In this document: piece by piece, positions 9,691-25,571 of the stretch
How positions within the stretch are numbered: position 1 is the stretch's first letter
Layout of the letters: each line of letters opens with the position of its first letter
Virus record (IMG/VR): IMGVR_UViG_3300042923_000268
Coordinates: 1 to 35,741 of that record
Length of the DNA stretch: 35,741 nt
Origin: a virus
Reading direction: 5' to 3' (one strand)
Position numbers and translations under genes: made by a program
The notes under the pieces: generated by a model
Told to the model about the DNA's origin: nothing
Seen by the model: only the letters and a program-made list of their open reading frames with translations
The model's database searches: none

Positions 9691-11645
9691 CAATCCTTCA
9701 TATAGAATGTAGTTTCAAAGCCTGCCGCGCTAAGCGGTAGCCCCGGCGCCCAGTCAATCGGCCGGCTCATGATCGATGTCACGTCATCAACAAGCGCATC
9801 ATTATCCCAAGGCACATCAAGAACGACCTCATCGTGTACGTGTAGCGGAATAACGTAGCCGTCTTCATCCAGTCGCATTAGGCTCTCAGCTAAACAATCC
9901 CGGGCGATGGCTTGTACCAAGTTCTCGACAAGTGTTCCGCCCCATGTCCTCTGCTGTGACCATTGATTCCGGTCATCTAGAGCGAAGAAGGTTAGTCCGT
10001 CCTTGTTGAACTTCGTATCGTGCTTAATTGCCGCTTGCGGGTAAGCGAGGCTGTGACCACTTGGTAAGTCCGCGAACAACGTTCCTGCCTCGTAACGATA
10101 CTGCACACCGTGTGCCAGCTTGACGGTCGACTTCATCCTCACCGCTTCCATTGCGGCTTCCTCGGCACGATACCAAAGCTTCCGGATATTCGGATTCGCC
10201 TGCCTCCACTGCTTGACCAAGCCATCGTACTGATCCTCCGGAATCTCCTTGCCCTTATCCATTTTCGCTAGAGCCGCAGCGCCGCCGCCGAATCCGCAGG
10301 CGAGCGTCGCCACTTTACCTGGTGCGCGGAATCGATAATTCTCTTGGCCCTTAGCAATGGTCTCGAATGCGATCCCGAACATACGCGCCGCGGTTGCTTC
10401 GTATATCTTGCCGTGTCCCTTAAATACGTCTAGTACCCAATGCTCGTCCGCAAGCCACGCGATGACGCGAGCCTCAATGGCCGCGAAGTCCGAGACGATG
10501 AAACGGCAACCTTCGGACGGGATAAGCGCGGTACGAACCAGTTGAGACATAACGAACGGCGGAGCGCCGAATAGCATTTCAAGGAAATCAAATTCCCCGT
10601 TAAGCAATGTCTCCCGCGCAAGCTCCAAGTCATTAAGATGGTTCTGCGGAAGGTTATGCATCTGCACGATCCGCCCCGCCCAGCGCCATGTCCGGTTAGC
10701 CCCGCAGAACTGGAGAATCCCCCGGACCCGATCATCCGCGCAGATCGTCCGCGCCATTGCATCGTATTTACTGTTGCTCGTCTTGCCCATCTCCTGCCGG
10801 AGCTCGAGCGCCCTGCGAGTCTCGTCATTCGGCGCGGCATCCAGCAACACGTCCATAAATTCTTTAGCGAGACTGTCAGCTGGCAGACCGTTATCAGTAA
10901 GCCACGCCTTGAGCTGGGCATCGCTGTTCGGGTTATCGAGCCCGGTCAGTTCCTTCGCTTCGTCGATCATGCGTTCCTTGTACTGAGCCCCGCAGGTGAT
11001 CGCGTTTTCCACGAATGCCCGGTTGATCCGGACGCCGCGATCGTTAATCCGCTGATCGAGCGCCCATAGCTTCCACTCCTTCTCCGGGACAGGGAAGCGC
11101 TCCAGCTTCTTACGGACCGCTCGCTCGACGACAACGTCCTGCACGCAGTAGGCTTTGTAATCCTCCCACTTCTCGGGCTCATGATGCGGATAGTTCCGCT
11201 CGCGCTGGCCGTTGACCTTAGTCGGCTTACACGGGACGGAGAAATATTTGATCAAGGCTTTTCCCTTGGTGTCCTTCTGGGCGTCCAGGTTAAGAACCGC
11301 CGCCGTGCTTCCCAAGTTCCCGGGTAAGCCAAGAGCTAGAGAATGGACTGACGTACACCGCCAAGCTACAGGATCGCAGACGATGCCGAAATGCTTCGCG
11401 ATACAGGTCCGCTCGAACGCTGCGTTAAATGCTGTCTTAATAACCTTTGGATTAACCAAGTCGTTCATAACTTTTTCCGGCAGATCCTCGAACGAGGTCA
11501 GATCGACAAGCGTGACCGGCTCGTCATCGTAAGCGTAGGCGAATAGGAGAATCTCGAAGTCCGGCGCTTCGACGTATCGGTAAACGCCGGACTTGAGAAG
11601 GTCGATGCTGCTGTATGTCTCGATGTCGATTTGGAGGACGGTCAT
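9690..11645 (-). CDS. Family A DNA polymerase (phage replicative)
   Basis: A 651-residue DNA polymerase I-like enzyme with proofreading and polymerase domains. Exonuclease motifs are DIE (D7, E9), NAAFERTC near 73-80 and YCVQDVV with D169. Polymerase motif A is SDFAAIEAR (D385), motif B spans about 438-454 (FRAPGKVATLACGFG) and motif C is HDE at 603-605. There is no 5' nuclease domain, as usual for phages. I start at the ATG at 11645 behind AGAGG because this puts the first exonuclease motif at its normal distance. The frame stays open upstream to 11792. It is the likely replicative enzyme, working with the VapE protein and the DUF2815 binding protein. Confidence 0.93.
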   Translation of the reverse strand: MTVLQIDIETYSSIDLLKSGVYRYVEAPDFEILLFAYAYDDEPVTLVDLTSFEDLPEKVMNDLVNPKVIKTAFNAAFERTCIAKHFGIVCDPVAWRCTSVHSLALGLPGNLGSTAAVLNLDAQKDTKGKALIKYFSVPCKPTKVNGQRERNYPHHEPEKWEDYKAYCVQDVVVERAVRKKLERFPVPEKEWKLWALDQRINDRGVRINRAFVENAITCGAQYKERMIDEAKELTGLDNPNSDAQLKAWLTDNGLPADSLAKEFMDVLLDAAPNDETRRALELRQEMGKTSNSKYDAMARTICADDRVRGILQFCGANRTWRWAGRIVQMHNLPQNHLNDLELARETLLNGEFDFLEMLFGAPPFVMSQLVRTALIPSEGCRFIVSDFAAIEARVIAWLADEHWVLDVFKGHGKIYEATAARMFGIAFETIAKGQENYRFRAPGKVATLACGFGGGAAALAKMDKGKEIPEDQYDGLVKQWRQANPNIRKLWYRAEEAAMEAVRMKSTVKLAHGVQYRYEAGTLFADLPSGHSLAYPQAAIKHDTKFNKDGLTFFALDDRNQWSQQRTWGGTLVENLVQAIARDCLAESLMRLDEDGYVIPLHVHDEVVLDVPWDNDALVDDVTSIMSRPIDWAPGLPLSAAGFETTFYMKD

Positions 11646-17133: not shown

Positions 17134-17457
17134 ATGGCTATTAAAGATAACATTAAGCTGCTAAGAGAGAAGTACAACCTCACACAACAAGATCTGGCCG
17201 ACATAGCTCATGTGACTAATAAAGCTGTATCTTCTTGGGAGAGCGGCCTATCCGACCCGCGAATGGGAGCATTGGAGAGAATGGCTCAGCATTTCGGGAT
17301 GAAGAAAAGTAACATCATTGAAGATGGTGGACTGGACTTTTTGGAGGAGCCCGAAACGCTCGCTGCACATTTTGAAGGGGAGGACTACACCGAGGAAGAA
17401 ATGAGAGAAATTTTGAATTACGCTAAGTTTATTAAATCCAAACGTAAAGAGGACTGA
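17134..17457 (+). CDS. CI-like XRE repressor
   Basis: A 107-residue repressor. Residues 1-65 form an XRE helix-turn-helix (IKLLREKYNLTQQDLADIA, then NKAVSSWESGLSDPRMGALE). The C-terminal part is a short acidic helical region (EGEDYTEEEMREILNYAKFI) and there is no LexA-type peptidase domain. Repressors of this form are usually inactivated by a partner ImmA-like protease, which is the next gene, four bases away. It should bind the 15-bp operators between itself and the cro-like gene and hold the lysogenic state. Confidence 0.87.
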   Translation: MAIKDNIKLLREKYNLTQQDLADIAHVTNKAVSSWESGLSDPRMGALERMAQHFGMKKSNIIEDGGLDFLEEPETLAAHFEGEDYTEEEMREILNYAKFIKSKRKED

Positions 17458-17460
17458 TCT

Positions 17461-17928
17461 ATGCCAATCAACAGATTGATGGCCGAGGCAGATTTTGAAG
17501 GGGTTGCCATTGTTGAACATCCTTTCAAAAATCTAAGACTTCGAGGGCTGTACAGTGACCGAGTCATTACAATTAACTCCTCCATCGAGGCGAGCAACAT
17601 AGAAAAGATATGCATTATCGCCGAGGAGCTAGGCCATCATCACACGAGTATCGGGAATATTCTCGATCAGAAAGATATACGCAATCGCAAACAAGAGCTC
17701 CGGGCACGAAGATGGGCACATGAATATCTCGTTCCATTGGAAGGTATTGTTGAGGCATTCATTGCAGGCGTCAAAGGAAGATACGAGATAGCCGAATTCC
17801 TCAGTGTTACAGAGGCGTTCCTGCAGGAAGCGATCGATAGGTACACGGATAGGTTTGGGCTGTGCGTCAAGGTCGACGAATATATCGTTTACTTTGATCC
17901 GCTCTGTGTAGGTGTGATGTTTGAATAA
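17461..17928 (+). CDS. ImmA/IrrE-family metallopeptidase
   Basis: A 155-residue ImmA-like protein. The zinc site reads AEELGHHHT (E55, E56, H59), the form seen in many phage ImmA proteins where the first His of HExxH is not present, and a later WAHEYLVP gives a possible third ligand at E88. In ICEBs1 and related phages ImmA cleaves the repressor after DNA damage. Here it follows the repressor gene by four bases. Whether the variant site is active as a protease cannot be read from sequence. Confidence 0.82.
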   Translation: MPINRLMAEADFEGVAIVEHPFKNLRLRGLYSDRVITINSSIEASNIEKICIIAEELGHHHTSIGNILDQKDIRNRKQELRARRWAHEYLVPLEGIVEAFIAGVKGRYEIAEFLSVTEAFLQEAIDRYTDRFGLCVKVDEYIVYFDPLCVGVMFE

Positions 17929-17999
17929 CTTGCGATACTGGCTGCAAGGCCATTCACTATAGATAAAAATAGAACATACGTTCCCGAGGAGGAATGGTT

Positions 18000-19103
18000 A
18001 TGGCTTCATATCAGAAACGAGGTAAGACCTGGCAATACACTATTAGCCGAATGGTTAACGGAAAACCTGACCCGATCCGTAAAGGCGGATTCGCTACCAA
18101 GGGTGAAGCGAAAGCAGCTGCAGGCGATATCGAACAAGATTTGCGCAAAGGGATCACACCACACCTTAAACCCGAGCCGTTTGACGAATACTTTGAAACG
18201 TGGCTTAAGTTGTACAAGCCGAATGTGGCAGGAAACACAATGGCCCGATATGAGAATACTCTAAAGACGATACAAGAAAATTTCCCCGGTGAAACGATCC
18301 AGAGTTTCACAAAAAGACGCTATCAAGAATTCCTTAATAAGTACGGGTCGACGAGATCGAAAGAAACTACGCGTAAAATCAACACGCACATTAGAGCTTG
18401 CATTAAAGACGCCATCGACGAGGGTATTATCCATTTAGACTTTACGCGCGGAGCCGTTCTCACCGGAACAGTGCCGGCTAAGCGCGGAGAAGATAAACAC
18501 CTCAGCCTATTTGAGAGCAAACGTCTGTTAAAGCATTTCAAGGACCCTGAATATCTATCTCACTACCTCATCCTCTTAGGTCTCACGTCCGGAATGAGGT
18601 ACGCTGAGTTAGTCGGATTGACGAGAAAGGATTTCTTGTTCAAATCAAATGAGATTAATATCGATAAAACATGGGGATATACAAAAAAGATGCACACTGG
18701 ATTTGGTCCAACGAAGAACGATCAATCAATAAGAAAAATTAAAATGGATGGAAAAACCATGAACATCTTCAAAAAACTATTCGAAAGAACGCCAGAGAAT
18801 ATTCACAGTCTTGTTTTCTTTAGCCCTACATCCAAATACAAAGTACTATGTAATACAGCCGTAAATAAAGTTCTTAAATCTACACTGCAGAAGTTGAATA
18901 TTGATCCGATCTCCGCTCACGGCCTTCGCCACACTCACGCCAGTATCCTGCTCTATAAACGCGCCTCGATTTACTACGTATCCGAACGCTTAGGACATAG
19001 TGACATTGAAACAACCAATGGGTATTATGCACACATTATTAAAGAGCTCAGGGAACAGGATGATAAAATTGCAGTTAAGACATTTGAGGAAATGATCGGA
19101 TGA
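18000..19103 (+). CDS. int: Tyrosine recombinase (phage integrase)
   Basis: A 367-residue integrase. The N-terminal 55 residues (YQKRGKTWQYTISRMVNGKP) form the AP2-like arm-binding domain, followed by a SAM-like core-binding domain and the catalytic domain with R200 (SGMRYAEL), H307-x-x-R310 (HGLRHTHAS), H333 (LGHSD) and the Tyr nucleophile at 343 in YYAH. I start at 18000, seven bases after GAGGAGG. An ATG at 17994 is too close. Direct repeats of TTTACAC downstream are probable arm sites. It integrates and, with an excisionase, removes the phage. Confidence 0.94.
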   Translation: MASYQKRGKTWQYTISRMVNGKPDPIRKGGFATKGEAKAAAGDIEQDLRKGITPHLKPEPFDEYFETWLKLYKPNVAGNTMARYENTLKTIQENFPGETIQSFTKRRYQEFLNKYGSTRSKETTRKINTHIRACIKDAIDEGIIHLDFTRGAVLTGTVPAKRGEDKHLSLFESKRLLKHFKDPEYLSHYLILLGLTSGMRYAELVGLTRKDFLFKSNEINIDKTWGYTKKMHTGFGPTKNDQSIRKIKMDGKTMNIFKKLFERTPENIHSLVFFSPTSKYKVLCNTAVNKVLKSTLQKLNIDPISAHGLRHTHASILLYKRASIYYVSERLGHSDIETTNGYYAHIIKELREQDDKIAVKTFEEMIG

Positions 19104-19663: not shown

Positions 19664-19900
19664 ATGGCTCCCCGAGTTGGGAGGAGCTGTTTGCCTGAAT
19701 TGCTTCTTCGCAGCGGGAAAACACAAGCGAATCTTGCGGACTATTTAGAAGTTAGTGAATCGTTTATTTCGCAAGTCATCGCTGGCAGGGCTAAGTTTTC
19801 AGTAATTAAAACAAAGTTGGCTGCTGATTTTCTCGGATGTATGATGGAAGAAGTTAACGAGTGGATCGATCTCCCAGACCCTGAATCAGGCAAACGGTAG
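19664..19900 (+). CDS. Small HTH (XRE/Cro-type) DNA-binding protein
   Basis: A 78-residue protein with a clear helix-turn-helix (LLLRSGKTQANLADYLEVSE, then SFISQVIAGRAKFSVIKTKL) and an acidic C-terminus (MEEVNEWIDLPDP). I start at the ATG at 19664, four bases after GAGGTG. Longer upstream frames would cross the promoter. The tail resembles regulators that count on a membrane or protein partner, but that is uncertain. It is transcribed toward the Agr-like operon and ends before a strong terminator at 20120. Confidence 0.72.
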   Translation: MAPRVGRSCLPELLLRSGKTQANLADYLEVSESFISQVIAGRAKFSVIKTKLAADFLGCMMEEVNEWIDLPDPESGKR

Positions 19901-20363: not shown

Positions 20364-20756
20364 TCATCCAAAACAGTATTCATTAGCCGTTCGCGATAAG
20401 TAGGCCGATACGTAATCTAGATTCAAATGAGATATTCGACATTTCTTTGATTCTTTCGTCACTACATCTTCGAAGTACCCCTCATGCTTAAAAGCATTCA
20501 TACTTCTTAACCTCTCGAGATTAACTGCGTTCGTGCGATCGAGCAACGGGAAATCATACCCGGTAGCCTTTAAGCTTTGTTGCCAGTAGATTAACGTACC
20601 AGGGGCGAAATACTGGTTTACCAGAGTGTGGAACACTACCATCTTACAGCAGTTATCGAATTCGAAACAAAGAATGTCCGGTACGTAAACCTTTGCAAGA
20701 GGTTCCAGTATCTCTTTATTCTTAATGACCGGGCTTGTTGAAAAATAGAGATCCAA
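20364..20756 (-). CDS. Receiver-less LytTR DNA-binding regulator
   Basis: This 130-residue protein reads as a lone LytTR domain, the DNA-binding domain of AgrA. VYVPDILCFEFD (23-34), the central HTLVNQYFAPGTL, and FPLLDRTNAVNLERL (69-83) follow the AgrA order, where the last phrase corresponds to FFRCHNSFVVNRHNI, and RISHLNLDYV fits the final strand. The phosphorylation-receiving domain of AgrA is missing. The start is TTG behind AAGGGGGAAGGAAC. It is the last gene of the operon after agrD. Stand-alone LytTR proteins paired with membrane proteins are known in streptococci (HdrRM, BrsRM). I assign the family from pattern, not alignment. Confidence 0.72.
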   Translation of the reverse strand: MDLYFSTSPVIKNKEILEPLAKVYVPDILCFEFDNCCKMVVFHTLVNQYFAPGTLIYWQQSLKATGYDFPLLDRTNAVNLERLRSMNAFKHEGYFEDVVTKESKKCRISHLNLDYVSAYLSRTANEYCFG

Positions 20757-20768
20757 GTTCCTTCCCCC

Positions 20769-20897
20769 TTACTTAAGTAGTTCCTTAGGGGCTTCTGGTT
20801 GGCCGATAAAGAACAAACTAGCTGGTGTAACAAAGATTACAGCTAAACTGGCTAGAGCGGATGCAAGTACGGAAGTTGCGCGAGTTTTGATTGTCAT
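20769..20897 (-). CDS. agrD: AgrD-like autoinducing peptide precursor with Ser ring residue
   Basis: A 42-residue precursor not longer than a typical AgrD. It has a basic N-terminus (MTIKTR), an amphipathic helix rich in Ala, Val and Leu (8-24), the ring segment SLFFI (27-31) and the tail GQPEAPKELLK (32-42). Aligned with S. aureus AgrD-I, S27 takes the place of ring Cys28, and the nine residues after the ring (GQPEAPKEL) match DEVEVPKEL at E, P, K, E and L. Ser instead of Cys predicts a lactone, as in S. intermedius and GBAP. AAGGAGG, overlapping the agrB stop region, precedes the ATG. Confidence 0.88.
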   Translation of the reverse strand: MTIKTRATSVLASALASLAVIFVTPASLFFIGQPEAPKELLK

Positions 20898-20905
20898 GTT
20901 GATAT

Positions 20906-21421
20906 TCACCTCCTTCCATGAATTAGACTGATGCTCTGGATTAAAAACGCCACTGCCACTACTGATGAACTAATTGCCAAATTAGATAAGACGATTAATA
21001 AAGATAAGTATTTAAGTAACGGGTAGTATTTTTCCGATATCCTCGACTGATTTTTTATATCTGTCGGTGCGAATACCAGGACTAGCGCAGCGGCCAGTAA
21101 AGTAACGATCCATGTGACGTCGCTCGAGAATGATATGTAGGAAATCCCTGTTAGCCCAAGCACGCTAATCAATACGCATAGATCAGTCGACGGGAGATGG
21201 TACCCTCCAGATAGCTGTCTCAGTACCGCAAAGGAAATGATCGCCGTTAAGGCCTCCCATTCTCTCCCGGTAAGCACCGACACAAGCATGGTGATAACCA
21301 CAACTCCTGATACGTTCAACAGCGCCGCAATTGAGAAAGAAAGAACTGCTGTACTTGCGGGATGATCAGGGACGACAGTTTTAATTCTTAAAGCTATTCT
21401 TAGAGCCAAACTTTGTATCAT
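20906..21421 (-). CDS. agrB: AgrB-like peptide-processing membrane protease
   Basis: A 171-residue integral membrane cysteine protease. The catalytic pair is H75 and C82 in RQLSGGYHLPSTDLC, with the same seven-residue spacing as H77 and C84 in S. aureus AgrB. The remainder is four or more hydrophobic segments plus a basic loop near 120-135, as in the family. It should cut the AgrD-like precursor encoded 8 bases downstream and close the ring while the peptide crosses the membrane. Its start overlaps the end of the sensor-like gene by 41 bases, showing coupled translation. Confidence 0.93.
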   Translation of the reverse strand: MIQSLALRIALRIKTVVPDHPASTAVLSFSIAALLNVSGVVVITMLVSVLTGREWEALTAIISFAVLRQLSGGYHLPSTDLCVLISVLGLTGISYISFSSDVTWIVTLLAAALVLVFAPTDIKNQSRISEKYYPLLKYLSLLIVLSNLAISSSVVAVAFLIQSISLIHGRR

Positions 21422-22049
21422 TGCTCTCCAATTCCTTTTTCATGGTGTAGGTGAAGAAAAATAGGACTGCGAAGAATAAGGTTAGAAAGATAATGAACAA
21501 AACTTTGTAATAGAGAAGAACTCCGAAGGAAACCGTCATAATGGCTATTAAGCTCATTATCAATATTCTCTCTGCTCTAAACCTAAGTTTTTCCACGAAG
21601 TCATAAGCGAGACCTAAACCGAATCGATAGAGCACAAATGCAAGGGTGAATAACAATACGCCGGTAATGGTCTGTAATAGATATCCCATATACGGGTCGC
21701 TCTCAGCTACCTCTAGCGACAGACTTCCGAATGAAAGAACGGTCACTAGCAACTGTACGATGATCGAAACTGCGTACCCCACAATGCTGATAATAAAGGA
21801 CCATAAAAGCGGTACTTTTACGAATACTGCAACGAAGAAGACAAGGATCAATAAGTTTGCGATTGGGGATAGCATGGCGAGATCTAATTCATCCCTCAAA
21901 ATGAAGCTGATTAAATTCATAACGAATCCGACAGCTAAAGCCGGCCAGACGTGGTCCACCAGTCTATACCTAAAGATGGAAAGCATTATAGCCATAGCTG
22001 CCAGCACTTCAATCATCGAGAATAACATGAACTTCGAAAACTCCAACAT
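21381..22049 (-). CDS. AgrC-like membrane sensor without kinase domain
   Basis: A 222-residue polytopic membrane protein with about six or seven hydrophobic segments (starting LEFSKFMLFSMIEVLAAMAI and ending near FLTLFFAVLFFFTYTM). The layout matches the sensor half of AgrC: transmembrane helices followed by the first residues of the linker (TMKKELESND). It then stops, so no histidine or ATP-binding kinase part exists in this frame or in the following 40 bases. The ATG at 22049 has GGGGGAG eight bases upstream. It may bind the peptide made by the neighbouring genes, or block host AgrC. The family call rests on topology and neighbours. Confidence 0.65.
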   Translation of the reverse strand: MLEFSKFMLFSMIEVLAAMAIMLSIFRYRLVDHVWPALAVGFVMNLISFILRDELDLAMLSPIANLLILVFFVAVFVKVPLLWSFIISIVGYAVSIIVQLLVTVLSFGSLSLEVAESDPYMGYLLQTITGVLLFTLAFVLYRFGLGLAYDFVEKLRFRAERILIMSLIAIMTVSFGVLLYYKVLFIIFLTLFFAVLFFFTYTMKKELESNDTKFGSKNSFKN

Positions 22050-22054
22050 TTGAT

Positions 22055-22360
22055 TTACTCCCCCGATTCTTTTTGCCGATCGCGCCACTCATCAATGTGT
22101 TGCATGTATTCCTCGATATCACTCCGGAGCCATATCGGAAACTTTCCAGCGTACAGTACAGGATCCGGAAAAAAGCTAGTCCTTCTCTTGTGAGTCATAT
22201 TCTTCGGATCTATCCCCAGCAACTCCGCTACGTCCTGATTGCTAAGTAGTTTGATACTCTTCGCTAACTCATACGCTTTGATCAATTCTTTAATTTTAAG
22301 ACCGTCATCCCCGCCTATTCTATCCGCCAGTAAGCGATATTGTTCTAATTCAATATTCAA
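22055..22360 (-). CDS. Helix-turn-helix regulator (MerR/AlpA-excisionase-like)
   Basis: A 101-residue protein. A helical N-terminus (IELEQYRLLADRIGGDDGL) is followed by a winged helix-turn-helix at about 38-90: LSNQDVAELLGIDPKNMTHK, then FPDPV, WLRSDIEEYM, which is the layout of MerR-like AlpA/excisionase domains. The start is TTG eight bases after AGGAGG. It is the first gene after the palindromic promoter, so it may control its own operon. It overlaps nothing but is six bases from the sensor-like gene. It could equally be an excisionase, since attP is 3 kb away. Confidence 0.72.
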   Translation of the reverse strand: MNIELEQYRLLADRIGGDDGLKIKELIKAYELAKSIKLLSNQDVAELLGIDPKNMTHKRRTSFFPDPVLYAGKFPIWLRSDIEEYMQHIDEWRDRQKESGE

Positions 22361-22381: not shown

Positions 22382-22421
22382 AATATAAGACCTTAACTTA
22401 TATAAGTCAAGGTCTTATATT
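22382..22421 (-). promoter_or_regulatory. Promoter inside a 40-bp palindrome, Agr-like operon
   Basis: Arms at 22382-22394 and 22409-22421 are perfect 13-bp complements. The 14-base centre holds a perfect 12-bp palindrome, ACTTATATAAGT (22396-22407). Only one central base pair breaks symmetry. On the minus strand TTGACT (22405-22410) and TATATT (22382-22387) are exactly 17 bases apart, so the dyad covers the entire core promoter. A dimeric regulator bound here would block transcription. Confidence 0.75.
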
Positions 22422-22439: not shown

Positions 22440-22775
22440 TCAATCAGAATTGCCGTTTCGTTCCAGTTGTCGCTCGAATTCGCCCATCGTCATTCCAAGA
22501 TGTAAGTCGAGATCCGCTTGCGAAATCTCATATCCATTCCCGATTCCGTTCAAGACATAGCGATACCGTCTTTCTCCTAACGGAACTTCCTGCACCCACA
22601 TCTTATTCAACTTCATTTTTGCTTTGGATTTCTCCAGCTCCAATGTAGTCATGCGCCCAAGTCCCTTTAGAGCTAATAGTTGCAACCCCTTCATACGTGG
22701 TAAGTCCTGCTTAGCCGTCTCGATAATCGTCAGCAGGGCGATGTGTCCGTTAAGAGCAATAATGGGGTCAAACAT
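22440..22775 (-). CDS. Hypothetical protein under a LexA-type SOS box
   Basis: A 111-residue protein of unknown family. It is mostly helical, opening FDPIIALNGHIALLTIIETA with a basic middle (ELEKSKAKMKLNKMWVQEV) and a charged C-terminus (MTMGEFERQLERNGNSD). I see no membrane span or catalytic motif. GGAGGAG precedes the ATG. The promoter contains a GAAC-N4-GTTC LexA site, so induction by DNA damage is likely. Its stop codon lies 19 bases before the palindromic promoter of the Agr-like operon, so read-through could raise that operon after damage. An anti-repressor or antitoxin role is possible but not shown. Confidence 0.65.
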   Translation of the reverse strand: MFDPIIALNGHIALLTIIETAKQDLPRMKGLQLLALKGLGRMTTLELEKSKAKMKLNKMWVQEVPLGERRYRYVLNGIGNGYEISQADLDLHLGMTMGEFERQLERNGNSD

Positions 22776-22787
22776 GATATCTCCTCC

Positions 22788-22836
22788 GATAAGAACATTT
22801 GTTCCGATTATAGTTCAAATGTTCTTATCTAGGCAA
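22788..22836 (-). promoter_or_regulatory. SOS-box promoter with 14-bp inverted repeat
   Basis: GAACATTTGTTC (22793-22804) fits the Bacillota LexA box GAAC-N4-GTTC. It lies within one arm of a perfect 14-bp inverted repeat (22788-22801 and 22816-22829). On the minus strand TATAAT (22807-22812) sits in the spacer, with TTGCCT (22831-22836) 18 bases upstream as a poor -35. The LexA site overlaps the start point, so LexA would repress until DNA damage. Confidence 0.68.
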
Positions 22837-22874
22837 ATAAAAATAGCCCTTAGCGGTGCTTCCGCCTTGGACTA
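22836..22874 (-). terminator. Terminator after endolysin
   Basis: On the minus strand TAGTCC-AAG-GCGG pairs with CCGC-TAA-GGGCTA around AAGCA and is followed by TTTTTATTT. It ends the late transcript after the lysis genes and overlaps the -35 side of the SOS promoter. Confidence 0.7.
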
Positions 22875-22937
22875 TCTTTAACCGATGCTTTCGGATTTGT
22901 TTAGATTATATATGCTTGTCCAATAAATGTAAATAAC

Positions 22938-23573
22938 CTATTTACGAGTCAATGCGATCGTATTTAACCAAGTCAGTTCCGATAATGTTAATGTCTTCTT
23001 CTCAGCCTTCTCGACCCACGACTTATCAATTGGCTGCTGCTTAAGTGAATTAACAAGCATCGTCCATTGTGTCTCCGTCAACTTCAAATCGTCGTCCTCC
23101 TCCGTCACATCGTATTTGGTCAGATCGTACGCCTTAATTATCGTCATTAGCTTGCCAGGGTACTGCGGATCGGTAGCGTAGCCGCACTCCTGAAGCGCCA
23201 ACGCCTGCTCGCCCGGAGTCTTTGCAGCTCTCACGCGGGCATAGCGAGACAATTCGAATAGTAAGTCCTGATCCTTGTAAAAGTCGTACAGCGTGTCATA
23301 GGCGCGGAATGCGGCGGTCACATTGTCATCACGCACTCCGTCATAAACTTCCCATGTTCCTTTGTTGACTGCACCGCCGCGCCAATAGGCGTTAGGCTTA
23401 CCACTACCCACTTTGATACCGCCAAGGTTATTCCATGAATGAATTACGCAACCGGTCTCTAGGATGTTCTGAGCGATCCGGACGGACGGGAACATCAAGG
23501 AGCCTTCTTTACGTACCTGGAGGACGTGAGGTAACACGGCGTTAATGAAATCGTTAGATGTTAGTTTTGTCAT
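22938..23573 (-). CDS. Endolysin, GH73 glucosaminidase-type
   Basis: A 211-residue peptidoglycan hydrolase. The FlgJ-like glucosaminidase domain shows FPSVRIAQNILETG with the catalytic Glu at 39 and the NNLGGIK loop (48-54), followed by a Gly/Tyr segment (GKPNAYWRGG) and a YDTLYDFYKDQ helix. The C-terminal 50 residues look helical and may bind cell wall or be a linker. I start at the ATG at 23573, since AAGGAGG lies upstream. The upstream ATG sits on that site. It overlaps the holin gene by 20 bases. It cuts the glycan strands once the holin opens the membrane. Confidence 0.88.
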   Translation of the reverse strand: MTKLTSNDFINAVLPHVLQVRKEGSLMFPSVRIAQNILETGCVIHSWNNLGGIKVGSGKPNAYWRGGAVNKGTWEVYDGVRDDNVTAAFRAYDTLYDFYKDQDLLFELSRYARVRAAKTPGEQALALQECGYATDPQYPGKLMTIIKAYDLTKYDVTEEDDDLKLTETQWTMLVNSLKQQPIDKSWVEKAEKKTLTLSELTWLNTIALTRK

Positions 23574-24027
23574 TAGGCGCGTTACCTCCTTCATTCAACT
23601 GCTCCAGCCAGCTCCGCAAGCGCTCCGGAAGTGGAACGCCGAGCGTCCCAAGGTTTTCGACGACGGATAAGCCCTCGCGGCCAGCATAGAAGAATATAGC
23701 TGCAGTCCGGAATAATGGAGCACCTGGATGAATCCAATCGTCAATGAGAGCGGCTAAGCCGACAACAAAAAGGACGGTTACCTTTCGGATCCCGCCCCAG
23801 TACATGATGTCACTATTTACTTTTTTAAGCTTAATCGCTCCAAGCACTCCGGACACGTAGTCCGCAACCATTAAAACGAGCAGGAGCTGCAAAGGCTTGT
23901 CCCATCCTCCCAGAACAGCCCCAATCGTACCGGTTATTGCTATCCAGCCACCCCATGCTGCTTCTTTGCTTGATGCCCCGACTGCTGCAGTCCACATGTT
24001 CATTAAGAGCTCTTTACCTTGATTCAT
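23554..24027 (-). CDS. Phage holin (Bacillota holin family 4 type)
   Basis: A 157-residue membrane protein of the phage holin family. Three or four hydrophobic segments are visible (PLQLLLVLMVADYVSGVLGA, KVTVLFVVGLAALIDDWI, and RTAAIFFYAGREGLSVVENL). The motif LLVLMVADYVSG and the later GREGLSVVENLG are typical. GGAGGTG precedes the ATG at 24027. It directly precedes and overlaps the endolysin gene, the standard lysis cassette, and sets the time of lysis by forming membrane lesions. Confidence 0.9.
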   Translation of the reverse strand: MNQGKELLMNMWTAAVGASSKEAAWGGWIAITGTIGAVLGGWDKPLQLLLVLMVADYVSGVLGAIKLKKVNSDIMYWGGIRKVTVLFVVGLAALIDDWIHPGAPLFRTAAIFFYAGREGLSVVENLGTLGVPLPERLRSWLEQLNEGGNAPNDKTNI

Positions 24028-24048
24028 CTTGCACCTCCTGCGAATAGT

Positions 24049-24076
24049 AAAGAGCCCCGCATTAGCGGAGCCCTCT
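24049..24076 (-). terminator. Hairpin between glycosyltransferase and holin genes
   Basis: On the minus strand a 12-pair stem with three GU pairs (AGAGGGCTCCGC and GCGGGGCTCTTT) closes on TAAT and is followed by ACTATT. It may separate the glycosyltransferase message from the lysis genes. The T-tract is weak. Confidence 0.4.
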
Positions 24077-24108
24077 GATGCGTATAATCGTCCTAATAGG
24101 CACACATT

Positions 24109-25500
24109 TTAATAATACCTATTATAAATAAGATCCATAGACATTATATTCAGAACAACCATCAATAAGGCAGAAGTGCTATAAACGTAATTCTTATATT
24201 TCTCTGGTACGATATATCGAAACCCAAATAATAAAACTAAGTTTATTGGAACTAGTGAAGTTAGTAAGTACCTTCCCTGTAGCATGAAATTATGGTACTC
24301 CTTGAAATAAGTGATTTCAACTGTGTAGAGAAAGACTAGATTTCCTAGCGCGAATATAAGACTAAATAACGCAATCTTGAAATTCTCTTTCCTTCGTAAT
24401 ATTCCGTAAACAGCTCCCCCTATCCCAACCAACATAATCCATGAAAGAACGCTATATATCGTATCCGAATTAAACCGAGTATCAGACCAGCCGAATTTTG
24501 CCCAATACTCTCGAGTCCACACATTGAAAAATCTTTCTTTACCAGCGTCATTGAATAACGCGTTTTGAAAGTACCAATTCAACCCTTGTGTTGGATCACC
24601 TTGCGGCTGCATTGCAACTCCGCCAGAGATGGAACCATAATGCGAGTAACTAAATATCGCCCATGGTAGATATAAGACGACCATCGGCCCCGCAACAAAT
24701 GCGGCAGATTTTAATGCCTTCACCAATCCGTATTTCTTGATGAAGAATATGAGAGCGAATAACAAGATAAATCCGCAAACATAGAACATTTGTGGTTTAA
24801 TAAGAAGTCCAAAACCCGCAACGAAACCACCAATGATAAGCGTTTTATTAGTGAATGCCTTTGTTATAATGAGCAACCATAGCAAAAGCGCAATTGATAT
24901 AGTATCCATCATAATATCGTTATTCACTGCCGCCCCTACCATAGAGAAGACAGGATGCATTCCGGTTGTGATTGCCAGCGCGCCCGCTAAGAAAATCGAC
25001 TTGGGTTCTATTGATTTGCCAATAAAATACGCCAACGTTACCGCAACTAAACTCAACAAAACAGAGAATATCCTCACCGCATATAGCCGGAACACAATGG
25101 TATCATCGTACCCCAGTTTATAAACGAGAGATGCAGGAAAATAGTATCCTGGGGGATAGCCTGCGGCAAGGCTACTGCCGGTTGATACGCGCATTTCGGG
25201 ACTATTATTTTTAGGATCCGAAAGCAAATGATAGAAATTTTGATGTATAAAATACTTTGATTCCGGTTTAAATACGATATCATTCATCCGTACTGCCATC
25301 GTAAATAAGTTTAATTCATGCGAATACCCAGGCTCGGACGTTTGAACCGGAACTTTATTTTCCTCACCCATATACTGAACATAAGCAAAATGGACATGTT
25401 CATCGGGGTTTTGCAAAGGCGGGATAATATAAACCCAAACAAGTCCTTTAATTAGCATTATGGTTAGTATGATCCATAGAAATAGATACTTTTTTAACAA
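24109..25500 (-). CDS. DUF2142-like GT-C membrane glycosyltransferase
   Basis: A 463-residue integral membrane protein with about 10 to 12 hydrophobic helices. The first outside loop holds the acidic PPLQNPDEHVHFAYVQ motif of GT-C fold enzymes, and later loops contain GYPPGYYFPA and YWAKFGWSDTRFN. The overall plan matches DUF2142, which uses polyprenyl-phosphate sugars. Codon use looks more AT-rich than in the surrounding tail and lysis genes, so it may be a recently gained moron. The TTG at 25500 has GGGGG six bases upstream. It probably modifies the host surface in lysogens, blocking further phages or altering serotype. Confidence 0.78.
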   Translation of the reverse strand: MLKKYLFLWIILTIMLIKGLVWVYIIPPLQNPDEHVHFAYVQYMGEENKVPVQTSEPGYSHELNLFTMAVRMNDIVFKPESKYFIHQNFYHLLSDPKNNSPEMRVSTGSSLAAGYPPGYYFPASLVYKLGYDDTIVFRLYAVRIFSVLLSLVAVTLAYFIGKSIEPKSIFLAGALAITTGMHPVFSMVGAAVNNDIMMDTISIALLLWLLIITKAFTNKTLIIGGFVAGFGLLIKPQMFYVCGFILLFALIFFIKKYGLVKALKSAAFVAGPMVVLYLPWAIFSYSHYGSISGGVAMQPQGDPTQGLNWYFQNALFNDAGKERFFNVWTREYWAKFGWSDTRFNSDTIYSVLSWIMLVGIGGAVYGILRRKENFKIALFSLIFALGNLVFLYTVEITYFKEYHNFMLQGRYLLTSLVPINLVLLFGFRYIVPEKYKNYVYSTSALLMVVLNIMSMDLIYNRYY

Positions 25501-25571
25501 GAGAATCCCCCTTTTCGACACCCCCAAATATTACTCGATTTTCGTAGGATTACACAATCCAGATTGTTACA

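Follow-up and report, generated by a model that had tools for sequence, protein, structure and literature searches.

An apparently LexA-controlled 111-residue gene between the lysis genes and an agr-like cassette of a Paenibacillus-type temperate phage

A gene for a 111-residue protein (22440–22775, minus strand) is preceded by a conserved LexA-type operator in the viral DNA described here, and it probably forms a one-gene unit repressed by LexA in a temperate phage of the Paenibacillus type, its product being a putative accessory of the SOS mutasome and its place a slot between the lysis genes and a self-promoted agr cassette. This reading is built on a LexA (SOS) box, a promoter match, the conservation of the operator, the protein family, and a recurrent gene neighborhood, from which we infer LexA binding and the role in the mutasome. 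The window, i.e., the whole stretch of DNA that was analyzed, corresponds to one linear virus record with a length of 35,741 bases. At the protein level, the best relative of its tape measure protein comes from Paenibacillus phage PG1 (49%), and all eight phage records in which its AgrB finds a match belong to Paenibacillus and Brevibacillus phages; a DNA-level search of phages with positions 11000–35741 gave no near relative. A search of Rfam gave only sub-threshold chance matches.

The minus strand encodes, in order, tail genes, a DUF2142 membrane protein, a holin (23554–24105; PF05105), an endolysin (glucosaminidase; 22938–23594; PF01832), the 111-residue gene, a DNA-binding protein, and then the agr genes, which comprise an AgrC-like membrane protein, AgrB, AgrD, and a LytTR-like protein. 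Farther on, the plus strand carries an XRE regulator at the end of the module (19664–19900; 46% identical to the XRE protein in the same place of L093), an integrase (17994–19103; PF00589), and a pair consisting of an XRE repressor and an IrrE/ImmA-like metalloprotease (17134–17928; HTH_3, Peptidase_M78). The DUF2142 multi-pass membrane protein (24109–25527; PF09913), located between the tail genes and the holin, is possibly a surface-modifying cargo gene. Between the endolysin and the SOS promoter lies a strong minus-strand hairpin followed by a T run (22836–22912; fold −25.5 kcal/mol, z −5.7); it is absent from the list of the consensus terminator scan and likely insulates the SOS promoter from late transcription. 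In the same region, a near-consensus promoter (TTTACA-17-TATAAT; 22905–22933) runs into two AAGCA-loop hairpins and the T run (22836–22912), possibly representing a small RNA, and the motif CCGAAAGCATCGG of this small-RNA-like region is seen again in L057.

The LexA box occupies 22792–22805 and reads GGAACAAATGTTCT on the minus strand, the letters at 22793–22804 being GAACATTTGTTC. It has the top score in the window (17.6) with a LexA matrix derived from 130 sites (74 distinct) upstream of lexA in 25 genomes, all of them from the family to which the Paenibacillus artemisiicola genome belongs; Markov sequences as long as the window would give 0.07 such matches by chance. The lexA promoters of L033, L035, and L040 contain the 14-mer GGAACAAATGTTCT letter by letter, and an operator of the GAACNNNNGTTC type, like the LexA sites of Paenibacillus host relatives, is present at the promoter. 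The GAAC-N4-GTTC box reported in the first-pass annotation is accordingly real, although it does not overlap the start of the gene as had been supposed, since its end lies 17 bp short of the ATG (22773–22775). The promoter itself (TTGCCT-18-TATAAT; 22807–22836, minus strand) matches 10/12 consensus positions, with the −35 at 22836–22831 and the −10 at 22812–22807. The box lies directly downstream of the −10 TATAAT, between this element and the ribosome-binding site, so that a bound repressor would block initiation. In an undamaged lysogen, LexA would occupy the box and keep the promoter silent, and DNA damage would lead to RecA-driven cleavage of LexA and free the promoter.

The promoter region also contains a perfect 14-bp inverted repeat with a 14-nt spacer (22788–22829; arms 22788–22801 and 22816–22829). 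The box had been placed inside this repeat; the repeat is indeed perfect, but only 9 of the 12 core bases of the box fall in one arm and the remainder extends into the spacer. The opposite arm holds a degenerate LexA half-site, AGAACATTTGAACT (22812–22825, minus strand; score 2.2), at the position that the box occupies in most orthologues. A repeat with 14 perfectly matched base pairs per arm, in a promoter whose orthologues mostly have a LexA-type palindrome without a long repeat, might be read as the true operator of a phage-encoded regulator, with the box a coincidence. This is very improbable given the rarity of such a box by chance, its exact match to lexA operators, and the LexA-like sites at 12/14 other close-family loci. 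The length of the inverted repeat nevertheless speaks to some degree against the LexA reading, as another regulator could bind there.

Conservation of the operator across the family strongly supports LexA control of the 111-residue gene. A LexA-like site (score at least 10, within 150 bp upstream) is found at 13 of the 15 close-family loci, the window included, versus 7 of 119 control starts, the controls being the other ORF starts in the same loci. The two exceptions without a site within 150 bp are L050 and L056, the latter with two boxes approximately 200 bp upstream. As a point against the reading, no box within 150 bp was found for the P. rhizovicinus copy (L004, a duplicate of L050), and none is listed in its neighborhood. 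Among the eight distant members, none has a site within 150 bp upstream, and in seven a box stands before the preceding gene, termed mini. All family counts exclude L060, L065, and L072 (partial or broken matches) and include duplicates once (L010/L011, L008/L049, L009/L066, and L004/L050). In the usual arrangement, deduced from ten aligned promoters, the box lies between the −35 and the −10 (GAACnnnnGTTCGyrTATAAT); in the window, the −35/−10 site has decayed and an intact box is found just downstream of the −10, as also in L069, with L057 being intermediate. The operator has therefore shifted and yet been retained, which is good evidence of selection for LexA control. The earlier proposal that damage switches on the gene gains a conserved operator, and the control itself stays a prediction from the DNA.

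Searches of Pfam, PHROG, and NCBIfam gave no match to the 111-residue protein, and a search of PDB gave no convincing one; with a pLDDT of 57, its AlphaFold model is too poor to lend support through the fold. Single-protein scans of viral contigs, genome contigs, and phages yielded no relatives, and the family was traced from a match on a plasmid. Relatives are present on a P. rhizovicinus plasmid (41%), in P. artemisiicola (45%, two copies), and in two IMG/VR records (61%), and a profile search gave 24 matches in 17 of 394 genomes of the P. artemisiicola family, the profile (A7) containing several of the sequences against which it was afterwards run. The family, which is defined here and occurs in prophages, plasmids, and chromosomes, is unannotated and looks SOS-controlled.

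The gene neighborhoods point to SOS mutagenesis. Distant relatives stand in units of box, mini, and distant 111 gene at 7/8 loci, and the order on the P. rhizovicinus plasmid is mini-f157-111. Directly upstream of f157, uvrX is found in 29 of the 30 best loci (L129–L158), and UvrX is a Y-family polymerase according to Pfam (PF00817, PF11799; checked on L108). Furthermore, the 111 and f157 profiles give one collinear alignment of 91 columns (P 0.005; 1 of 200 column shuffles equalled the score), although the likeness by eye between the 111-residue protein and the C-terminal half of f157 gave no match with smaller alignments and a weak one with larger ones; homology over the C-terminal 100 residues is therefore suggestive at most. 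The f157 gene, whose product has no Pfam match (checked on L108), appears as the third member of the uvrX operon among Paenibacillus relatives and is unannotated; a match at E 0.001 or better was found in all 118 genomes searched, many of the matches being weak. Membership of the 111-residue protein in the YolD family (PF08863) was rejected (no Pfam match; profile comparison P 0.38), and the mini gene likewise gave no profile match to YolD (P 0.17). No uvrX gene or other polymerase gene is adjacent to the 111-residue gene in the window. On account of the mini, f157, and uvrX neighborhoods and the alignment between the 111 and f157 profiles, the protein is likely an SOS mutasome accessory with a YolD-like role, and it would probably aid a UvrX-type error-prone polymerase of the host, as is thought for YolD.

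The accessory slot that the 111-residue gene would fill has the lysis genes on one side and, on the other, a kinase-less agr-like cassette, whose parts are all encoded on the minus strand. Membership in the agr group is indicated by AgrB (20906–21421; PF04647, E 6.6e-18) and by an AgrD-like pre-peptide (20769–20897) found as an ORF by script and ending in SLFFIGQPEAPKELLK. At its presumed ring position, the pre-peptide has Ser in place of Cys, as in many of the cassettes compared, which suggests a lactone peptide. The AgrC-like membrane protein (21381–22088) was recognized by alignment with cassette relatives and by a profile that includes the window itself (5e-76); an AgrC-like profile matches 248/394 genomes. 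The protein comprises 235 residues and has no Pfam domain, the histidine kinase domain of AgrC being absent. The fourth member, a 130-residue LytTR-like protein (20364–20756) conserved in the cassette, has a weak LytTR match below the cut-off (E 0.051) and no AgrA-type receiver domain. Upstream of these, the 101-residue DNA-binding protein (22055–22360, minus strand) is excisionase/HTH_17-like (phrog_4745, E 4.5e-6; weak HTH_17) and has no clear kinship to its counterparts in L018 or L123.

The junction between the 111-residue gene and the cassette is short and structured. The gene ends at 22440, and 18 bases separate it from a 40-bp palindrome (22382–22421; arms 95% complementary) containing the agr-side promoter TTGACT-17-TATATT (22410–22382; 10/12 consensus matches). 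The first-pass annotation had put the gene end 19 bases before this promoter with no strong terminator between; the close spacing stands, the 18 bases being counted to the palindrome and the −35 starting at 22410, and there is no T-rich intrinsic terminator before the promoter, but the promoter itself lies in a terminator-like hairpin. As RNA, the palindrome forms an 18-bp hairpin (76-nt fold −23.4 kcal/mol, z −6.0), which the terminator scan lists as terminator-like, its T tail being weak. The palindrome was not found in the viral contigs, and it may act as an operator or an attenuator or else terminate weakly. Since the agr side has its own promoter in the palindrome, read-through is unproven. 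The stretch from yolD to agrC contains no listed terminator-like site in four other cassettes (L012, L128, L094, and L123), yet promoter-like sites are present between yolD and agr in all four, and common transcription is thus no more than possible. A terminator-like hairpin with a T run is also seen at the agrC start of L012 (4375–4397), L128 (2094–2116), and L094 (2100–2122), which may be a coding coincidence or attenuation.

LexA-controlled mutagenesis genes recur upstream of agr, with a different gene, yolD, in the slot, and this recurrence raises the idea of coupling between damage and agr above a guess. In all eight viral contigs with AgrB 42–45% identical to that of the window, the agr cassette is preceded by a LexA box and a same-strand yolD (PF08863); L018 and L019 have two insertions, a nuclease gene and a gene for a DNA-binding protein. 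In addition, 40 genomic agr regions were hand-picked, roughly every fourth among the matches listed and not as a random draw over the 248 genomes, with two regions each from genomes G068 and G225; yolD-linked cassettes were among those used to build the A4 profile, so the top of the list is biased. In ten of these 40 (L089, L090, L091, L093, L094, L102, L104, L108, L123, and L128), yolD, mini, f157, or uvrX lies co-directionally upstream within 3.5 kb, whereas 30 have none. A box scoring at least 13 within 1.8 kb upstream is present in seven, and box and yolD form the immediately upstream unit in six (L089, L090, L093, L094, L123, and L128), with a DNA-binding gene between this unit and agr in L123. 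YolD genes number 57 in 40 genomes, from which the chance of a same-strand yolD within 1 kb is, by our own estimate, approximately 1 in 10,000 cassettes. AgrB identities between groups are about 33–60%, which argues against a single recent copy, though L012–L019, L089, and L090 represent one lineage. The prophage order of L094 is like that of the window: holin and amidase come first, then box-yolD and agr, and finally an XRE gene in the opposite orientation. That of L093 is similar, with amidase and XRE. Of three isolated phages, Abouo carries yolD at a distance of 2.3 kb upstream, beyond an integrase, and the search gave no box there; the other two have neither yolD nor a box. A LexA box and a mini gene are located downstream, not upstream, of the agr cassette in L103 (374–606).

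The recurrence bears on the possibility that damage switches on the 111-residue gene together with the agr cassette, the latter through read-through or common regulation, in which case the prophage would be steered jointly by damage and population density. The shared strand, the short junction, the co-directional SOS genes of all eight viral contigs and ten sampled cassettes, and the four yolD cassettes without a listed terminator speak for such coupling; the agr-side promoter in a palindrome that could stop or gate read-through, the promoter-like sites of the same four cassettes, and the 30 sampled cassettes that have agr independently of an upstream SOS gene speak against it, as does the finding that no agr genes occur in the stretches covered for 14/15 close-family loci, i.e., all except the window. 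Coupling, as first proposed, has therefore gained recurrence but not read-through; damage and signaling may be linked, and the joint steering of the prophage is considered possible but rather unlikely. A wider proposal, which we hold only tentatively and rate as somewhat improbable, is a conserved damage-plus-density module in prophages of Paenibacillus relatives, located between the lysis genes and the lysogeny region, in which LexA-controlled yolD, 111, or mini-uvrX-f157 genes upstream of a kinase-less agr cassette would let damaged lysogens change signaling, mutagenesis, and, via a LexA-controlled integrase, excision. A literature search, with most subscription journals outside its range, gave no relevant paper on YolD together with AgrB and, among the titles listed, none on a LexA-agr prophage module.

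A second LexA box is found before the integrase (17971–17984; score 16.3; 0.13 expected by chance). The box is at the same place in five of nine related prophage integrase loci (L161–L165; four scoring 17.9–18.9 and one 11.8) and absent from the other four. None of the nine related integrase records has this agr cassette or the 111 gene, and damage may hence act on excision in this integrase group regardless of agr. The box suggests damage-controlled excision, and this conserved site is a better-placed candidate than agr coupling for a damage input to prophage behavior. LexA-controlled induction factors are known in other temperate phages, e.g., Tum of coliphage 186, and together with the integrase box in the window they lend some weight to the idea that the 111-residue protein is itself an SOS-triggered antirepressor helping the prophage to exit lysogeny. 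This idea is quite unlikely, considering that the family is also found on a plasmid and in whole genomes, partly beside mutagenesis genes and not repressors, and that the phage has its own ImmR/ImmA-like pair for induction; a mutasome accessory is the preferred reading.

Regardless of coupling, the analysis provides a new, apparently SOS-controlled protein family, a third gene of the uvrX operon, and a recurrent LexA box before a group of prophage integrases. If coupling is true, a temperate phage would read DNA damage and a population signal at one locus, which is a testable parallel to arbitrium.

The prophage SPbeta of Bacillus subtilis signals through arbitrium and not agr, and its yolD is not known to be adjacent to agr. 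LexA boxes at SPbeta yolD (PMC8270828) and kinase-less agr cassettes of phages (PMC3901668) are already known. The LexA boxes of SPbeta yolD lie beside the −10, and LexA binding to them has been measured in vitro; the likeness to the window thus consists of a prophage gene with LexA boxes near the −10 and a tie to error-prone repair (PMC8270828), whereas YolD belongs to another protein family. YolD has been argued to be the counterpart of UmuD (PMC6511836). The Gram-positive UvrX/YolD mutasome resembles the present case in having operons under SOS control, and members of the 111 family, close and distant, adjoin the mini and f157 genes of such operons; it differs in that the 111-residue protein is unlike YolD and no polymerase is encoded adjacent to it in the window. 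The pair of a kinase-less membrane protein and a receiver-less LytTR-like protein is reminiscent of the LytTR Regulatory Systems (HdrRM and BrsRM), in which a membrane protein and a LytTR regulator act with no phosphorelay (see also PMC6193735), although the pair in the window is joined with AgrB and AgrD and its LytTR match is weak. Phage agr genes were described in phiCDHM1, and AgrC candidates without a kinase domain were noted in 2014 for Davies, Emery, and Abouo (PMC3901668), a paper whose main text does not contain the terms SOS and LexA. Like the window, these temperate phages combine AgrB and AgrD with an AgrC-like membrane protein, and phiCDHM1 differs from the window in having an AgrC with a HATPase domain.
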